From Candidatus Falkowiibacteriota bacterium (GTDB lineage: Bacteria > Patescibacteriota > Patescibacteriia > Patescibacteriales > VMTK01): a stretch of DNA of 34,899 nt. A program made the position numbers and the translations under genes. Position 1 is the stretch's first letter. Every line of letters begins with the position of its first letter. Positions 10,621-27,712 of the stretch are shown in pieces. The stretch is taken from NCBI GenBank assembly GCA_013791585.1, contig VMTK01000021.1, forward strand, positions 1 through 34,899. Direction: 5' to 3'. The notes beneath the pieces were generated by a model that was not told the origin of the DNA, ran no database searches, and saw nothing but the letters and a program-made list of their open reading frames with translations.

Positions 10621-10672
10621 AATTAGAAATCTTTTATTCAAATATTTAACAAACAAGTTCTAACAAAGTCCG

Positions 10673-10850: not shown

Positions 10851-10894
10851 TTTCAGAGGATTCAGCGGAGTTCAAAGCTTTATTCAGGCAATTT
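10851..10894 (+). repeat. 44-bp direct repeat, copy A (left flank of cassette 1)
   Basis: The architecture is an 18-bp arm (TTTCAGAGGATTCAGCGG), a 12-bp variable centre, and a 14-bp arm (TATTCAGGCAATTT). Copy B at 12257-12300 has the same spacing; 17 of 18 and 14 of 14 arm bases agree while the 12-bp centres differ. The first arm is itself two 9-bp units of the type TTCAGCGGA. Confidence 0.85.
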
Positions 10895-10976
10895 AGTTAA
10901 ATGATTCAACCGCCTATATTACTATTATTCTTATGGTGGTGCGATAGGTATTGATTCCAGTGATCAATATAAAAAG

Positions 10977-11004
10977 TTGACAAAAAATGAAAAATAGTTA
11001 AAAA
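10977..11004 (+). promoter_or_regulatory. Probable promoter of cassette 1
   Basis: A perfect -35 box TTGACA is at 10977-10982. A weak -10 (TAAAAA, 10999-11004) follows after 16 bases. Just upstream, TTGAT and ATCAA (10951-10967) form a small palindrome that could be an operator. Confidence 0.45.
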
Positions 11005-11056
11005 TATAACCACAAATAGTTCCTTGCCAACCCAAAATTTATAAGGAGGTTTATTT

Positions 11057-11692
11057 ATGAGTAATTTTGATTATTTAAAAACTGACAAGTTCCCTTGGGA
11101 GAATGCGACTGATACATCAAAATCTCTATTTCCCGCAATAAAAAAAACTGAGTTCTTTGACTTTGAAAAGTTCACTCGAGATTTATCTGAGAAAAAATTA
11201 GAAAAAAATCTAGAACGAATCTATGGAAATAGCACATTACCCAAACTTAATTTTGATAGCAGCGCTCTTAGTCCCGCCTTTTCGGTAAGCGACAGAATAA
11301 GTGTTACGGAAATAGATGAAACTTATGATGACGAGGAAGACGACTGGGAGGATAAAATGCCGTCTGTCTGTTCAGTTGTTTCTTTAGTTGCTAGTTTTTT
11401 CTGCCCTTTTCTTTTGCCGGTTGCAGCCCTTGTAATAGGCAATGATGCCCAGAAACGCACTCAAAGATCAAAGGCAAAAAGGATTGCCAAAAAAATTACA
11501 AACTTAGATACAGATTTTTTACTTGATGTTGGTCAGGAAAGAAGAGATTTAAAGGGTGCTCGGCTAACTCACACTTTTACCGTAGATGAATCAACAAGAC
11601 CATGTTTATTTGGAAATTTCAATACGGGAGTAGTAACAGAAGAAATAGATTATAGAACAGGAAAAATTAAAAGAAATATTGATGTAATATAA
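11057..11692 (+). CDS. Cassette 1 first gene: hypothetical protein with one membrane segment
   Basis: 211 residues; I do not recognise a family. It starts at ATG 11057 with a strong Shine-Dalgarno AGGAGG at 11044-11049, unlike most genes here. The N-terminal half is polar and rich in Phe, Lys and Glu. An acidic stretch (DETYDDEEDDWEDK, about residues 87-101) precedes a hydrophobic segment (about 103-128, with two Cys and Pro residues) that could span the membrane or form a hairpin. A very basic patch (KRTQRSKAKRIAKK) follows, so the C-terminal domain would be cytoplasmic by the positive-inside rule. That domain (about 146-211) is predicted to be beta-rich and ends with VTEEIDYRTGKIKRN. It forms a two-gene unit with the next gene (14-base gap), between the 44-bp direct repeats. 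A toxin, immunity or surface role is possible but unsupported. Confidence 0.85.
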   Translation: MSNFDYLKTDKFPWENATDTSKSLFPAIKKTEFFDFEKFTRDLSEKKLEKNLERIYGNSTLPKLNFDSSALSPAFSVSDRISVTEIDETYDDEEDDWEDKMPSVCSVVSLVASFFCPFLLPVAALVIGNDAQKRTQRSKAKRIAKKITNLDTDFLLDVGQERRDLKGARLTHTFTVDESTRPCLFGNFNTGVVTEEIDYRTGKIKRNIDVI

Positions 11693-11706
11693 GAAAGGAG
11701 GCCGAA

Positions 11707-12054
11707 ATGAATAATCTACCTATTATTTCCCCAAATCGTTTTTTATCGTCTTATGATGTTGTTGAAGAAAATCCTCTTTCCGTTATCGCCAAACAATTTC
11801 CAGAGAGCGCTATCGCCTTGATGGATAGATTGTCAATTAGACAGCGTGAAACGAGCATAGCTTTAGCCAGGGCAACTTCTCTGGCCGATATAGCACAATC
11901 ACATTGTGCCACTATTGCTTCAGCAGTGCATGCTCGCCCTGACATGGATCATTTTCGAGCTACAACCATAGATACCGAAGGAACAACCGGTTTTTTCTTC
12001 GGCAGATCGGAAAGACGTTTTAGAAAAATAACTACACAATTGGATATGTGGTGA
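11707..12054 (+). CDS. Cassette 1 second gene: small hypothetical protein
   Basis: 115 residues, no recognised family. A very strong Shine-Dalgarno AAAGGAGG (11694-11701) lies five bases before ATG 11707. The middle (about 20-75) is predicted helical: NPLSVIAKQFPESAIALMDR, then ETSIALARATSLADIAQ. The end contains GTTGFFFGRSERRFRKI. No signal peptide or membrane segment is seen, so the protein is probably cytosolic. It uses TGA as stop and is followed after about 20 bases by a strong terminator, so the two-gene unit is complete in itself. The Ala-rich, GC-richer composition differs from neighbouring genes and fits recent acquisition. Confidence 0.85.
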   Translation: MNNLPIISPNRFLSSYDVVEENPLSVIAKQFPESAIALMDRLSIRQRETSIALARATSLADIAQSHCATIASAVHARPDMDHFRATTIDTEGTTGFFFGRSERRFRKITTQLDMW

Positions 12055-12076
12055 ATACACATTTCTTAAATACTCA

Positions 12077-12115
12077 CCCCCTTATCAGTATCTAGCTGAT
12101 AAGGGGTGTTTTTTT
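12077..12115 (+). terminator. Intrinsic terminator of cassette 1
   Basis: An 11-bp stem joins 12078-12088 (CCCCTTATCAG) and 12096-12106, with a seven-base loop, followed by a T-run at 12109-12115. Confidence 0.92.
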
Positions 12116-12256
12116 ATTTCAACTAAAATTTTTATTCTAAAAAATAAGTTCTGATATTTTCATTGGCTAGGCTGTTTTTTTGCTATTTAAAATATACGCA
12201 TTTTGGCGCAAATCGGGAATTTTTTTAATATTCGCTTAATCGGACCATCCTCTATA

Positions 12257-12300
12257 TTTCAGCGGATTCAGCGGCATCTGAAAAATTATTCAGGCAATTT
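12257..12300 (+). repeat. 44-bp direct repeat, copy B (right flank of cassette 1)
   Basis: The second copy of the 18+12+14 element has arms TTTCAGCGGATTCAGCGG (12257-12274) and TATTCAGGCAATTT (12287-12300) around a centre different from copy A. It lies in the 456-base gap 12055-12510, which also holds the cassette terminator and, five bases after the repeat, a promoter-like element. The rest of the gap shows nothing I can name. Confidence 0.85.
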
Positions 12301-22037: not shown

Positions 22038-22718
22038 ATGGGGAAAGAAAAATATTATCCACCCAAACATGCGACAGGTCAATTTCACTGCCCGCATTGT
22101 AATGTCTACGCCAAGCAGTTTTGGGCGCATATACGAGCGAGGCGTATTTGGGGAGGTACTTTTATGGACAGTTATGTCACTGATTTTAGTGAAGACCTAG
22201 ACAAAAAATGGAATATTTCTAAATGTGAACATTGCGGAGACAAAATAATATGGTTGGATGAAAATATTATTTATCCTAAATTAATTATTGTAAAAAATCC
22301 CAATGAAGATTTAGATGAAGGTATAAAGGCAAATTACATGGAGGCAGCTAAAATTTTTAATGATTCGCCAAGAGCTGCGGCTGCTCTTTTAAGGTTAGCT
22401 TTGCAAAAATTATGCAAGCAACTAGGCGAAAAAGGGAAAGATATTAATGAGGATATTAAAAATTTAGTTAAAAAAGGTTTAAATCCGCAAATACAAAAAT
22501 CTTTAGATATATTAAGAATAAACGGGAATAATGCTGTTCATCCAGGAGAAATTAATCTTGAAGAAAATCAAGAAAAAGTTTTAAAACTTTTTTCTTTGTT
22601 AAATTTTATAGCGGAAAAAATGATAACTGAGTTAAAAGAAATAGATAATTTTTATAATGATCTGCCTAAGAATTCTAGAGAATCTATAGATAAAAGGGAT
22701 GGCAATACAGAATCATAA
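22038..22718 (+). CDS. DUF4145 (HEPN-like) protein with N-terminal zinc ribbon
   Basis: 226 residues. The N-terminal zinc ribbon has two knuckles, C18-P-H-C21 and C63-E-H-C66. The C-terminal domain (about 100-205) fits DUF4145: SPRAAAALLRLALQKLC, a helix pair, and the signature R160-INGNNAV-H168-PGE. DUF4145 belongs to the HEPN superfamily, where conserved Arg and His residues can form an RNase site; the spacing here (R-x7-H) is slightly longer than the classical R-x4-6-H, so activity is uncertain. The gene lies three bases upstream of hsdS and is probably co-translated with it, a common neighbourhood for DUF4145. A role as an abortive-infection back-up or a regulator of the restriction system is an inference. 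Confidence 0.85.
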   Translation: MGKEKYYPPKHATGQFHCPHCNVYAKQFWAHIRARRIWGGTFMDSYVTDFSEDLDKKWNISKCEHCGDKIIWLDENIIYPKLIIVKNPNEDLDEGIKANYMEAAKIFNDSPRAAAALLRLALQKLCKQLGEKGKDINEDIKNLVKKGLNPQIQKSLDILRINGNNAVHPGEINLEENQEKVLKLFSLLNFIAEKMITELKEIDNFYNDLPKNSRESIDKRDGNTES

Positions 22719-22721
22719 TTT

Positions 22722-24086
22722 ATGACCTACTCAATAATCCAAAAATCAAAATTAGAAGAAACAAAACGATTTGATGCTGAATATTATCAGCCGGAGTATT
22801 TGGCGGTGGAAAAAAAATTAAATTCAATTAAAACTAAAACAATTCATGAAGTTGCTAAAAGCGTTGTAAATTTTGGCGCGTATTCATTATGCAACTCTAT
22901 TCAATGGCAAGACAGCGGAGTTCCTTATTTAAATGTCCAAGATATAAAAGAAGGATATATTAATTTAGACGATACAAAATTTATAAGCGAAAAAGTAAAT
23001 GAGATTTTAGAAAAATCAAAAGTTCAAGAAGGTCAAGTTATTTTAACTATGGCAGGGACTATCGGTAATGTTGCAGTAGCGCATAAAATTCCTTTAAAGG
23101 TAAATTCAAATCAAGCAACTGCAAAAATTACATTTAAAAAAGACATATCACCATATTTTATAACAGCATTTTTAAATTCGTATTACGGGAGAAATCAAAT
23201 AATACGGGAAATTGTTAGCAGTGTTCAGCCAAATATTTTTCTTTTTCAAATTAAAAATTTTAAAATTCCCGTTGCTTCAAAAAATAAGCAAAACGAAGTA
23301 GAAAAAATCTATATACGAGGATTAGATGAATTAGAAAATTCAAAATTCCTTTACTCCCAAGCCGAAAACTTGCTTTTAGACGAATTGAAAATTAAAAATT
23401 TGGATTTAGAGGATAAATTAAATTATGTTGTAAAATTGTCAGAAGCGGAAAAATATAAGCGCGAAGACGCGGAATATTTTCAGCCGAAATATAGAAATTT
23501 AATTGAGCATCTTAAAAAGAATTGCAACGGTGTTTTATTGGGAGAAATTGCAAGCATAAAAAAAGGAATAGAGCCCGGAGCCGATGCGTATTTGGATAGC
23601 GGAAAACAATTCATCAGAGTAAGCAGTATGAGTAAATATGGAATCAATGATAATGATCAAAAATATTTGACCGAGGATTTATATAATGAGTTAAAAGAAA
23701 AACATGAGCCGAAGAAAGGGGAAATTTTATTAACAAAAGACGCATCGCCAGGGATTGCTTATGTTTTAAAAAATAATATAGAAGGAATTATATCCGGCGG
23801 GGTTTTAAGATTAAAATTAAAAAATAAAAATATAGAAGGCGAATATTTAGCTTTATGCTTAAATTCTATTGTCGGGCAAATGCACGCCGAACGAGATGCC
23901 GGCGGATCTATTATTAAGCATTGGAAGCCGGAACAAATTAAAAATGTAGTAATTCCTGTTTTGTCAAAACAAATTCAACAAAAAATTTCTTCACTTGTCT
24001 GCGAATCATTTGAAAAAAGAATAAAAGCAAAAGAATTATTAGAAGAAGCAAAAAGAAAAGTTGAGGAGATGATTGAGGGAAATTAA
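22722..24086 (+). CDS. hsdS: Type I restriction specificity subunit (HsdS)
   Basis: 454 residues with two half-domains, as usual for HsdS. Each begins with a similar segment (RFDAEYYQPEY near residue 17 and REDAEYFQPKY near 249). Each then has a target recognition domain: TRD1 with GVPYLNVQDIKEGYI and GQVILTMAGTIGNVAVA, TRD2 with FIRVSSMSKYGI and GEILLTKDASPGIAYVL. Helical spacer segments follow both (about 185-230 and 410-452, the latter EKRIKAKELLEEAKRKVEEM). The two recognition domains differ, so a bipartite asymmetric DNA site is expected. It presumably directs the nuclease-methylase fusion encoded at 18877. The start ATG 22722 is three bases after the DUF4145 stop. Confidence 0.94.
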   Translation: MTYSIIQKSKLEETKRFDAEYYQPEYLAVEKKLNSIKTKTIHEVAKSVVNFGAYSLCNSIQWQDSGVPYLNVQDIKEGYINLDDTKFISEKVNEILEKSKVQEGQVILTMAGTIGNVAVAHKIPLKVNSNQATAKITFKKDISPYFITAFLNSYYGRNQIIREIVSSVQPNIFLFQIKNFKIPVASKNKQNEVEKIYIRGLDELENSKFLYSQAENLLLDELKIKNLDLEDKLNYVVKLSEAEKYKREDAEYFQPKYRNLIEHLKKNCNGVLLGEIASIKKGIEPGADAYLDSGKQFIRVSSMSKYGINDNDQKYLTEDLYNELKEKHEPKKGEILLTKDASPGIAYVLKNNIEGIISGGVLRLKLKNKNIEGEYLALCLNSIVGQMHAERDAGGSIIKHWKPEQIKNVVIPVLSKQIQQKISSLVCESFEKRIKAKELLEEAKRKVEEMIEGN

Positions 24087-25159: not shown

Positions 25160-25282
25160 ATGGCAAAAAGAAGCACCGGGGTTGGGAAGAAGAAAAAAGC
25201 GCATTCCCACAAAACCGCCAAGCGGCTTGAAATCAAGCGGATTATGCTTGAGAAAAAAGCCGACAAAAAAAAGCATAAATAA
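25160..25282 (+). CDS. 40-residue highly basic protein
   Basis: ATG 25160 to TAA 25282. Of 40 residues, 19 are Lys, Arg or His counted by eye in the sequence MAKRSTGVGKKKKAHSHKTA and its continuation, with one amphipathic helix (RLEIKRIMLEKK). Such composition is typical of small ribosome- or RNA-associated proteins, but I cannot name a family. It has a promoter with an extended -10 and is followed six bases later by a highly structured RNA segment that may be its 3' untranslated region and terminator. Confidence 0.65.
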   Translation: MAKRSTGVGKKKKAHSHKTAKRLEIKRIMLEKKADKKKHK

Positions 25283-25287
25283 AGTTT

Positions 25288-25390
25288 ACCCCGCGCAAAG
25301 AATGCCTTTAACAAAGTCGGAAGGTTAAATAGTCCGTTGCGGTTGGCGGAATAATGCCGCCAACCGCAATAAATTTTGTGCGGGGTTTTT
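25288..25390 (+). ncRNA. Candidate structured RNA with nested stems and terminator-like end
   Basis: The outer stem pairs 25288-25299 (ACCCCGCGCAAA) with 25375-25386, 12 pairs with one G-U. Inside are a 6-bp hairpin (25307-25312 with 25324-25329) and a perfect 13-bp hairpin (TTGCGGTTGGCGG, 25337-25349, with 25357-25369). The closing strand ends in GGGGTTTTT (25382-25390). The nested stems far exceed what an intrinsic terminator needs. It may be a small RNA released from, or the 3' end of, the basic mini-protein message. The gap 25283-25568 also holds a second terminator, the first 37-bp repeat and a promoter. Confidence 0.5.
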
Positions 25391-25463: not shown

Positions 25464-25500
25464 AACGCCGCATGAAATTGACTTAAGGCAAGAAAATTTG
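25464..25500 (+). repeat. 37-bp direct repeat, copy 1 (left flank of cassette 2)
   Basis: These 37 bases (beginning AACGCCGCATGAAATTGACT) are identical to 26031-26067, 567 bases downstream. The last three bases overlap the -35 box of the promoter that reads into the small gene at 25569. Confidence 0.95.
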
Positions 25501-25526
25501 ACAAAAAATATAGTTTGTGCTATATT
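25498..25526 (+). promoter_or_regulatory. Consensus promoter of the small cassette 2 gene
   Basis: TTGACA (25498-25503), 17 bases, TATATT (25521-25526). The start is expected near 25533, giving a 36-base leader that ends in the strong Shine-Dalgarno AGGAGG (25555-25560). Confidence 0.88.
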
Positions 25527-25568
25527 TTAGTATTGAAAGCATAATCTTTACAATAGGAGGAGAGAAAA

Positions 25569-25760
25569 ATGAAAAGAAAGAGAAAACTGGAAGTTGTCAT
25601 TACTGGAATACCGCAAGAATGGATATGTCCGGTAAGGATACAAGAGTTGGAAGAGAAAAAAATCCCATATTTTCTCAGGGGTGGTTCTTTTGAGATTGTT
25701 CTTGAAAATCCCGAATTGGCCACAGAGCTTTTAAAAAAGGAATGTCATTTTCTTCTTTAG
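25569..25760 (+). CDS. Cassette 2: 63-residue hypothetical protein
   Basis: 63 residues from ATG 25569, with AGGAGG eight bases upstream, one of only three strong Shine-Dalgarno sequences seen here. A basic N-terminus (MKRKRKLEVVITGIPQEW) is followed by CPVRIQELEEKKIPYFLRGG, a strand (FEIVLE) and a helix (PELATELLKK). The order beta-alpha-beta-alpha suggests a small ferredoxin-like or swapped-hairpin fold, which is only a guess. The gene has a consensus promoter, a strong terminator 29 bases after its stop, and lies between two identical 37-bp repeats. Function unknown. Confidence 0.75.
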   Translation: MKRKRKLEVVITGIPQEWICPVRIQELEEKKIPYFLRGGSFEIVLENPELATELLKKECHFLL

Positions 25761-25788
25761 CCAATTTAGCCAAGAAAAATTTTGAGTG

Positions 25789-25818
25789 GGAGGTTATCTT
25801 AGAATAACCTCCTTTTTT
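25789..25818 (+). terminator. Intrinsic terminator of cassette 2
   Basis: A 9-bp stem GGAGGTTAT (25789-25797) with ATAACCTCC (25804-25812), loop CTTAGA, then six Ts. Confidence 0.92.
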
Positions 25819-25915
25819 ATATCACTAAACAAGTTCTAACGTTGTTTGGTTCGCAAAGCAAAAATAAAAAAATCGTTGAATAAGCGGTTTTTTTGTTTTT
25901 AGTTAATTCTCAAGT

Positions 25916-25945
25916 TGATTTTTAAATTGGAAATATGGTAAAGCG
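25916..25945 (+). promoter_or_regulatory. Diverged third copy of the TTGATTT-type promoter element
   Basis: TTGATT (25916-25921), 18 bases, then ATATGGTAAAGC. Aligned with 12306-12335, 21 of 30 positions agree, mainly in the two boxes and the GAAA-x-ATGGTA segment. It lies in the 494-base gap 25761-26254, which otherwise contains the cassette terminator, repeat copy 2, another promoter and an 8-bp array. Confidence 0.4.
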
Positions 25946-26030
25946 TGAACATGTAATAAGAATGTAGAAAAATTATATTTTATATTGTTTTTATAAAAAA
26001 ATTAGCTTTATTTTGGCTTTGGACGGTTTT

Positions 26031-26067
26031 AACGCCGCATGAAATTGACTTAAGGCAAGAAAATTTG
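26031..26067 (+). repeat. 37-bp direct repeat, copy 2 (right flank of cassette 2)
   Basis: Identical to 25464-25500. In this copy the internal TTGACT and the following 17 bases lead directly to a TATACT box, so the repeat carries part of a working promoter. Confidence 0.95.
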
Positions 26068-26073
26068 TATACT
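26045..26073 (+). promoter_or_regulatory. Promoter upstream of rlmN
   Basis: TTGACT (26045-26050), 17 bases, TATACT (26068-26073). The leader to rlmN is about 175 bases and contains an 8-bp tandem array. Confidence 0.7.
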
Positions 26074-26114: not shown

Positions 26115-26178
26115 GCTAAATTGCTAAATTGCTAAATTGTTTAATGTCAGCAATTTAACAATGTAACAATTTAACAAT
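26115..26178 (+). repeat. 8-bp tandem array with inverted counterpart in the rlmN leader
   Basis: GCTAAATT occurs three times in tandem (26115-26138). CAATTTAACAA and related words follow at 26150-26178 and are imperfect reverse complements, so the segment can fold into a long AT-rich hairpin. Confidence 0.75.
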
Positions 26179-26254
26179 ACTTGCGAGGATTTTTCAAACA
26201 GGCGCAATAATGATATTTAAATATTTAGTATTCAAATGCGTAACCCCTGAATTT

Positions 26255-27301
26255 ATGGAAATCAAAGAAATAAATGAATTTTTAAAAAACAACAATCTGC
26301 CGGAATATAGGTTGAAGCAGATTATTAAAGCCGTTTACAGGGACGGTGTTTCTTGTTTCTCTGAAATCACAACCATTCCCAAAGAGCTAAGGGAAAAAAT
26401 GGGCAAGGAAATAAAAATATTGTCTTTTAAAGCTGAGAATGTTTTGGAAGCGTCCAACAAAAAATCTTTTAAAGCTTTGTTGAAATTAGCCGACGGCAAT
26501 TATATTGAAACAGTATTATTGAGCCCGTTAAGCGATCATTGGTCGGCCTGCGTATCATCTCAGGCAGGCTGCTCTTTGGGCTGCAAATTTTGCGCGACCG
26601 GCAATTCAGGGTTTAAAAGAAATTTAACCAACGAAGAAATAACCGATCAGATATTATTCTGGAAGCAATTCATTAAAAAGAATAATTTAGCCGGCAGTTT
26701 TCACGGCATAGTGTTTATGGGCATGGGCGAGCCGTTTATGAATTATGAAGCGGTTGCTAAAAGCATTAAAAGCTTGATGGATGCAGGATTATTCAATTTC
26801 GGAGCAAGGCATATTTCCGTGTCCACAGCCGGACTGCCCGAGGGGATTAAGCGTTTGGCTAAAGATTTTCCGCAAGTTAATTTGGCCATATCTTTGGCAA
26901 CGGCCAATGACGAAAAGCGATCCGAACTTATGCCCATAAATAAGGCGCATAAATTAGCGGGCATAAAAAAAGCTTTGGATTATTATTTTAACAGAACCAA
27001 CCGCAAAGTTTTTCTGGAATATATTATGCTGGAAGACGTGAATGACAAGCGGAATGACGCGGATAATCTGATAAAATTTATTAATTCCAATTCAAAGCCT
27101 AATTTGTTGCATGTTAACTTAATCCGTTATAACGCGGCCGTAAGCGGGCTAAAGCCGTCTAAAGATGAAACAGTCAAATGGTTTAAGGAATACTTGGCTA
27201 AAAATAAAATCAGCGCGACTGTCAGAAAAAGCCTGGGCCAAGAGATCCAAGCCGCTTGCGGGCAATTGGCAGGTGAAAACACGAAAACACAAAAACACTA
27301 A
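26255..27301 (+). CDS. rlmN: 23S rRNA (adenine-2503 C2) methyltransferase RlmN
   Basis: 348 residues from ATG 26255, which gives the conventional N-terminus (EIKEINEFLKNNNLPEYRLKQ); an in-frame ATG at 26210 would add 15 unlike residues. The radical-SAM cluster motif is C106-x3-C110-x2-C113. The two catalytic cysteines are C99 (SACVSSQ) and C335 (AACGQL). MGMGEPFMNY and the SVSTAGLP region complete the family pattern. The enzyme methylates A2503 of 23S rRNA (and some tRNAs in other species) by a two-SAM radical mechanism. The last residues (GENTKTQKH) are encoded by the 8-bp repeat array that starts inside the gene, and the stop codon is part of a repeat unit. Confidence 0.95.
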   Translation: MEIKEINEFLKNNNLPEYRLKQIIKAVYRDGVSCFSEITTIPKELREKMGKEIKILSFKAENVLEASNKKSFKALLKLADGNYIETVLLSPLSDHWSACVSSQAGCSLGCKFCATGNSGFKRNLTNEEITDQILFWKQFIKKNNLAGSFHGIVFMGMGEPFMNYEAVAKSIKSLMDAGLFNFGARHISVSTAGLPEGIKRLAKDFPQVNLAISLATANDEKRSELMPINKAHKLAGIKKALDYYFNRTNRKVFLEYIMLEDVNDKRNDADNLIKFINSNSKPNLLHVNLIRYNAAVSGLKPSKDETVKWFKEYLAKNKISATVRKSLGQEIQAACGQLAGENTKTQKH

Positions 27302-27610
27302 AACACAAAAACGCTAAAACACTCGGCTTCGCCTCAAAACACAAAAACACGAAAACACAAAAACACGAAAACACTCGGCTTTGCCTTAAAACACTAAAAC
27401 ACGAAAACACTAAAACACGAAAACACTCGGCTTTGCCTCAAAACACTAAAACACAAAAACACGAAAACACTAAAACATTCGGCTTTGCCTCAAAACACGA
27501 AAACACGAAAACACTCGGCTTTGCCTTAAAACACGAAAACACGAAAACACTAAAACACGAAAACACTCGGCTTTGCCTCAAAACACGAAAACACGAAAAC
27601 ACGAAAACAC
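27275..27610 (+). repeat. 8-bp period minisatellite (AAAACACN) with interspersed 12-mers
   Basis: The array is built of units NAAAACAC (N = G, T, A), about 30 in total, interrupted six times by a 12-base word CGGCTTTGCCTC or close variants (near 27324, 27376, 27426, 27479, 27515 and 27569). It starts inside the rlmN coding region, supplies its stop codon, and fills most of the 435-base gap 27302-27736. Reading frames through it give only low-complexity peptides (KHENTKT, CFCVFVF). Confidence 0.95.
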
Positions 27611-27640
27611 GGGAATAATTTAGCAATATAACCATTGCCT

Positions 27641-27712
27641 CGCCACAGTCTCCCGAAGGGGACTGTGGCGGTAAGCAGGCAAGCCGTCGCAGTCCTCTGC
27701 GGAGAGACTGCG
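27641..27712. repeat. Pair of REP-like GC-rich palindromes
   Basis: First hairpin: CGCCACAGTC (27641-27650) with GACTGTGGCG (27661-27670). Second hairpin: CGCAGTC (27688-27694) with GACTGCG (27706-27712). Both share the CAGTC/GACTG core and lie in tandem 24 bases before the exonuclease gene, unlike the AT-rich surroundings. Confidence 0.8.

Follow-up and report, generated by a model that had tools for sequence, protein, structure and literature searches.

A small orphan gene between identical 37-bp direct repeats upstream of rlmN in a patescibacterial genome: a possible microhomology-mediated insertion

The window, that is, the whole 34,899-nt stretch of DNA analysed here, is contig C7 of the genome of a Candidatus Falkowiibacteriota bacterium (1.34 Mb in 73 contigs). 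Towards its right-hand side, the gene for the 23S rRNA A2503 methyltransferase, rlmN, is preceded by a short transcription unit that lies between two copies of a 37-bp sequence, in the neighbourhood of pieces of two dispersed elements, which we name A and B. The features that matter for the discussion are the following, each with the evidence used to place it.

25336–25370, forward strand: terminator-like hairpin after an upstream 40-aa ORF (25160–25282), bordering the proposed empty site on the left
25464–25500, forward strand: direct repeat, copy 1 (sequence comparison, shuffles, genome search)
25498–25526, forward strand: sigma-70 promoter of the small gene, TTGACA-17-TATATT (11/12, extended −10 TG)
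25555–25560, forward strand: AGGAGG Shine-Dalgarno sequence, 8 nt upstream of the ATG at 25569
25569–25760, forward strand: 63-aa orphan ORF (ORF translation, homology and fold searches)
25788–25813, forward strand: intrinsic terminator of the small gene (−15 kcal/mol)
25857–25904, forward strand: second long A/T-rich hairpin, possibly a further terminator (folding z-score −6 for the stretch)
25956–26035, forward strand: left half of element B, cut off at AACGC (alignment with copies in two genomes)
26031–26067, forward strand: direct repeat, copy 2, its first five bases, AACGC, being also the final bases of B
26045–26073, forward strand: promoter towards rlmN, TTGACT-17-TATACT (10/12), with −35 box and spacer inside copy 2
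26117–26243, forward strand: element A (stem-loop and conserved tail), between promoter and rlmN
26255–27301, forward strand: rlmN (start set from relatives)

The repeat unit, AACGCCGCATGAAATTGACTTAAGGCAAGAAAATTTG, is the same at all positions in its two copies (37/37 bases, 100% identity), which start 567 bp apart. Shuffling the window yielded no match of this kind, and some 8e-10 exact pairs of 37-mers would be expected by chance in the genome: the repeat is far beyond chance. A perfect repeat at these positions had been reported in the first-pass annotation of the sequence; it is exact and, furthermore, unique in the genome, where a search with its inner 34 bases, allowing up to three mismatches, found the two copies and no third. 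The 37-mer was not found in viral contigs either. In a 298-kb sample of the genome this is the longest non-tandem repeat pair located outside large ORFs, the next notable pairs measuring 25 bp at a spacing of 448 bp (contig C44) and 22 bp at 384 bp (contig C37). The former, an exact direct repeat (L067:779-803 and 1227-1251), brackets a tRNA-Leu gene beside TTGACA sites, in an arrangement that resembles that of the 37-bp repeat.

Between the two copies, the consensus promoter, the 63-residue gene with its AGGAGG and the terminator described in that annotation are all present. Copy 1 ends in TTG, which also opens the −35 box of this promoter. In the region as a whole, promoter-like sites are not commoner than chance (six found, 5.3 expected from shuffles). 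The codon score of the ORF, 0.059, falls between that of real genes (median 0.17 for pieces of 63 codons) and that of spurious ORFs (−0.05). With codon usage intermediate and favourable signals, translation is likely, judging from those signals. The product is an orphan in the collections searched. It has no convincing relative in the order (111 genomes), the class (381) or the phylum (380), and no convincing match among phages, plasmids, IMG/VR, PDB, Pfam, NCBIfam, PHROGs and PADLOC. What came up was short, no better in E value than about 0.004 and for the most part located inside longer frames, and six such short matches looked unrelated once translated. A single-sequence AlphaFold2 model has the order ββ-α-ββ-α (pLDDT 79), and a fold search with this model returned no significant match. 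The residue pattern had raised the suspicion of DUF2007 (PF09413), which was discarded: Pfam gives no match up to E=10, and no match to it was found in the organism's own genome. Rfam returned nothing above the gathering threshold, a search of plasmids for distant DNA similarity gave A/T-rich chance matches only, and a literature search found nothing on the subject.

On the rlmN side, copy 2 bears both the TTGACT box (26045) and the whole 17-base spacer of a promoter that reads towards this gene, as the same annotation had noticed. The nearest named relative of RlmN belongs to a Candidatus Moranbacteria MAG (58% identity). A genome of the same family has an rlmN gene 45% identical, in another gene context that is not syntenic, and the sequences upstream of rlmN that were extracted from other genomes show no resemblance to the window. 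Element A, an A/T-rich stem-loop followed by its tail, has further copies on contigs C37, C66, C35 and C28, and also on C32, with 84–88% identity among most of them; several are near contig ends, and the stem-loop part is also present in other families of the same order. Two further observations concern the surroundings: a tandem array of AAAACAC / CTCGGCTTTGCCT units occupies the end of rlmN and the region beyond it (27248–27662), and a gene resembling a Type I restriction specificity subunit lies at 22038–24086, with a DUF4145 gene just upstream, its product matching MAD5 of the MADS system over the full length, below the cut-off of that model.

Element B deserves a closer description. It is a dispersed unit of about 140 bp with near-inverted ends, TTAGAGTGTAGAA and TTCTACAGTCTAA, and inner CGCTGA repeats, of which copies occur on C44 (L006, C44:13153-13239), on C37 and four times in a genome of the same family (G001, L089–L092), so that it is common to two genera of one family. 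It looks like a MITE. Duplications of 5–6 bp (AATAT, AACTGT) seem, by eye, to flank the copies on C44 and on contig C38 of G001. The copy in the window does not display both near-inverted ends: its right half is absent, and we have there a truncated member.

The position of this truncation is what links B to the repeat. The left half of B aligns with window positions 25950–26030 with a score of 97 (shuffles 18.2 ± 3.3), whereas the right half, looked for after AACGC, scores 12 (12.6 in shuffles), as compared with 74 versus 12.6 for the true copy on C44, which does carry it. Since the left half matches and the right half is missing past AACGC, the first five bases of copy 2, the breakpoint between B and non-B sequence lies precisely where the 37-bp repeat begins on the left. 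No significant B sequence was detected upstream of copy 1. At its other edge the repeat ends in TTTG, and from this tetranucleotide (25497) onwards the sequence resembles a promoter on contig C24, in a match that is short and partly imposed by the promoter consensus; the 40 bases before TTTG have no similarity to C24 (8 versus 9.7). The C24 promoter lies upstream of what is likely to be a toxin-antitoxin module, named from its sequence. The coincidences at AACGC and TTTG suggest that, at either edge of the repeat, insert and target share a few joining bases, with the proviso that each single match of 4–5 bp is weak evidence and that the reasoning on B was put together with the alignment already in view. 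A repeat scan found no inverted pair at the two extremities of the insert; aligned with each other as an inverted repeat, they score 18, slightly above shuffles (12.7 ± 2.2, with 16 of 500 reaching that value), which leaves some probability to a transposable end of an unfamiliar kind.

We can understand this organization as the outcome of an illegitimate, microhomology-mediated insertion of the small gene together with half of element B, an event that would have duplicated the 37 bp and kept the promoter of rlmN. To this reading we give about an even chance of being right. The ancestral site would have read terminator, 37 bp, TATACTG, rlmN, and the anatomy of this proposed empty site is sensible: the hairpin at 25336–25370, then a 10/12 promoter, then rlmN. 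The incoming DNA would have been a self-contained unit for the 63-aa orphan, with promoter, strong Shine-Dalgarno sequence and terminator, joined to the left half of B. This insert, running from TTTGACA through the small gene and half of B to AACGC, would have joined the target at two points 37 bp apart, one join at TTTG, common to the −35 region of the insert and the end of the 37-mer, the other at AACGC, with which the 37-mer opens and which also occurs midway along element B. Because the joins would be 37 bp apart, the 37 bp would have become a direct repeat and rlmN would have kept its promoter. Homology-poor (illegitimate) recombination, involving for example incoming DNA or template switching, would be enough, and no dedicated integrase or transposase is implied. 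Afterwards, the small gene would be transcribed alone, its terminator shielding rlmN. What we infer in this scenario is that an empty site existed, which way and in what order the events ran, where the DNA came from, and that the ORF is translated. It appears to be the simplest account, as it would account both for where the repeat stops, on either side, and for the retained rlmN promoter.

The first-pass annotation had already proposed that insertion or duplication had preserved the downstream promoter, and this part of its interpretation is supported at the joints, by the place where B is cut off and by the short matches at both edges. Its second part, according to which cassettes between direct repeats would be acquired as a general habit, is not supported: of the 18 ORFs led by AGGAGG in the 298-kb sample of the genome, 17 lack any exact repeat of more than 12 bp on their flanks, the one exception being the gene described here. 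The stretch 10851–12300, put forward as a companion cassette, is flanked by a different and imperfect repeat (44–51 bp at 76–80% identity), which was not found elsewhere in the same sample. Within the sampled part of the genome, the 37-bp case looks like a single occurrence rather than a cassette system. A 14-mer, AAACAAGTTCTAAC, lies near both of the claimed cassettes (10651–10664 and 25827–25840) and occurs exactly twice in the genome, still only twice with one mismatch allowed, at positions that differ relative to the two units. In the genome sample, small hypothetical ORFs led by AGGAGG are recurrent and many, and GGAG precedes few large ORFs, at least 8 of 183, this count being a lower bound obtained with the uncertain starts of longest ORFs. 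Small ORFs of this type are a possible class of accessory genes.

Other histories would lead to the same arrangement. It may be that the small gene was already present and that only 37 bp of the rlmN promoter region were copied upstream of it, by template switch or conversion. This would require the smallest amount of DNA to be copied and is consistent with element B being contiguous with copy 2; moreover, removing copy 1 leaves GCCATG|ACAAAA, with a passable −35 box (ATGACA), so that the small gene may have had a promoter of its own beforehand. We nevertheless hold this explanation to be unlikely: it would have to be fortuitous that the copied 37 bp begin just at AACGC, where B gives way to other sequence, and the joints proper to such an event share just 1–2 bp. 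Selection offers a different view, in which the repeats, however they arose, would be kept as a shared operator or promoter-enhancing element co-regulating the small gene and rlmN. Both copies are indeed placed at promoters, and the 25-bp repeat around the tRNA-Leu gene of C44, also beside TTGACA sites, would make a second case. The two copies differ, however, in their register to the −10 box, the TTGACT of copy 1 having no −10 at 17 nt, and perfect identity over 37 bp with nothing beyond speaks for recency rather than for constraint, which makes this explanation improbable.

Site-specific or homologous recombination might also have brought in a small cassette, circular or mobile, with one copy of the 37-mer, leaving copies of the attL and attR kind. 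A single crossover would indeed yield identical direct repeats around a self-contained gene, and the circle would contain the two joints unbroken. Yet there is no recombinase gene between the repeats, the 37-mer is nowhere else in the genome nor in the viral contigs, the attC cores RYYYAAC and GTTRRRY form no pair on either strand of 25464–26067, and the other AGGAGG-led ORFs of the genome sample are devoid of such repeats; we regard such an integration as quite doubtful. Going further, and imagining an undescribed mobile cassette of Patescibacteria, with a dedicated mechanism that would insert it into gaps between promoters and terminators and duplicate the promoter so that neighbours stay expressed, would be highly speculative, and we give it very little credence. 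Finally, the assembly may have created the arrangement, a loop through a 37-bp node mixing two strains or misplacing the small gene. The window is the whole contig of a fragmented draft, and dispersed repeats are found near several contig ends, which would favour an effect of this sort. But usual reads exceed 37 bp in length, the insert and both its flanks are compatible in composition and orientation, and no other sign of a misjoin was seen in the contig, so that an artefact has a low probability.

If the microhomology-mediated insertion is the right reading, the locus would be a readable example of how a Patescibacterium with a small genome gained an orphan gene at a few matching bases, the promoter of the target having been duplicated in the process so that the next gene was not silenced. 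It has two joints defined to the base and allows an empty site to be predicted; a new system is not revealed.

It remains to place this organization among known systems. As in the insertion of a transposon or an IS, a direct repeat of the target is present on both sides; unlike these elements, the insert has no transposase gene, the only ORF between the repeats being that of the 63-aa protein, without a Pfam, NCBIfam or PHROG match. Its extremities, slightly above shuffles when read as an inverted repeat, are not convincing as inverted ends, and the duplications made by transposons and IS usually span 2–14 bp, 37 bp being far longer. With integron gene cassettes it shares the format of a small single-gene unit, but it has neither an attC core pair nor an integrase, and it comes with its own promoter and terminator. 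As for sites of the att or dif type, no core recurs elsewhere in the genome and no recombinase is encoded between the repeats. The likeness to MITE-like elements is that the insert includes the left half of one, element B with its near-inverted ends; the small gene itself is outside any intact copy of such an element. Illegitimate, microhomology-mediated insertion with target duplication has been described for homology-facilitated illegitimate recombination and for template switching. In the present case the direction of the event and the empty site are inferred rather than observed; the likeness to these two processes would lie in matches of a few bp at both joints and in offset breakpoints that duplicate the target, with neither a recombinase nor site specificity involved.
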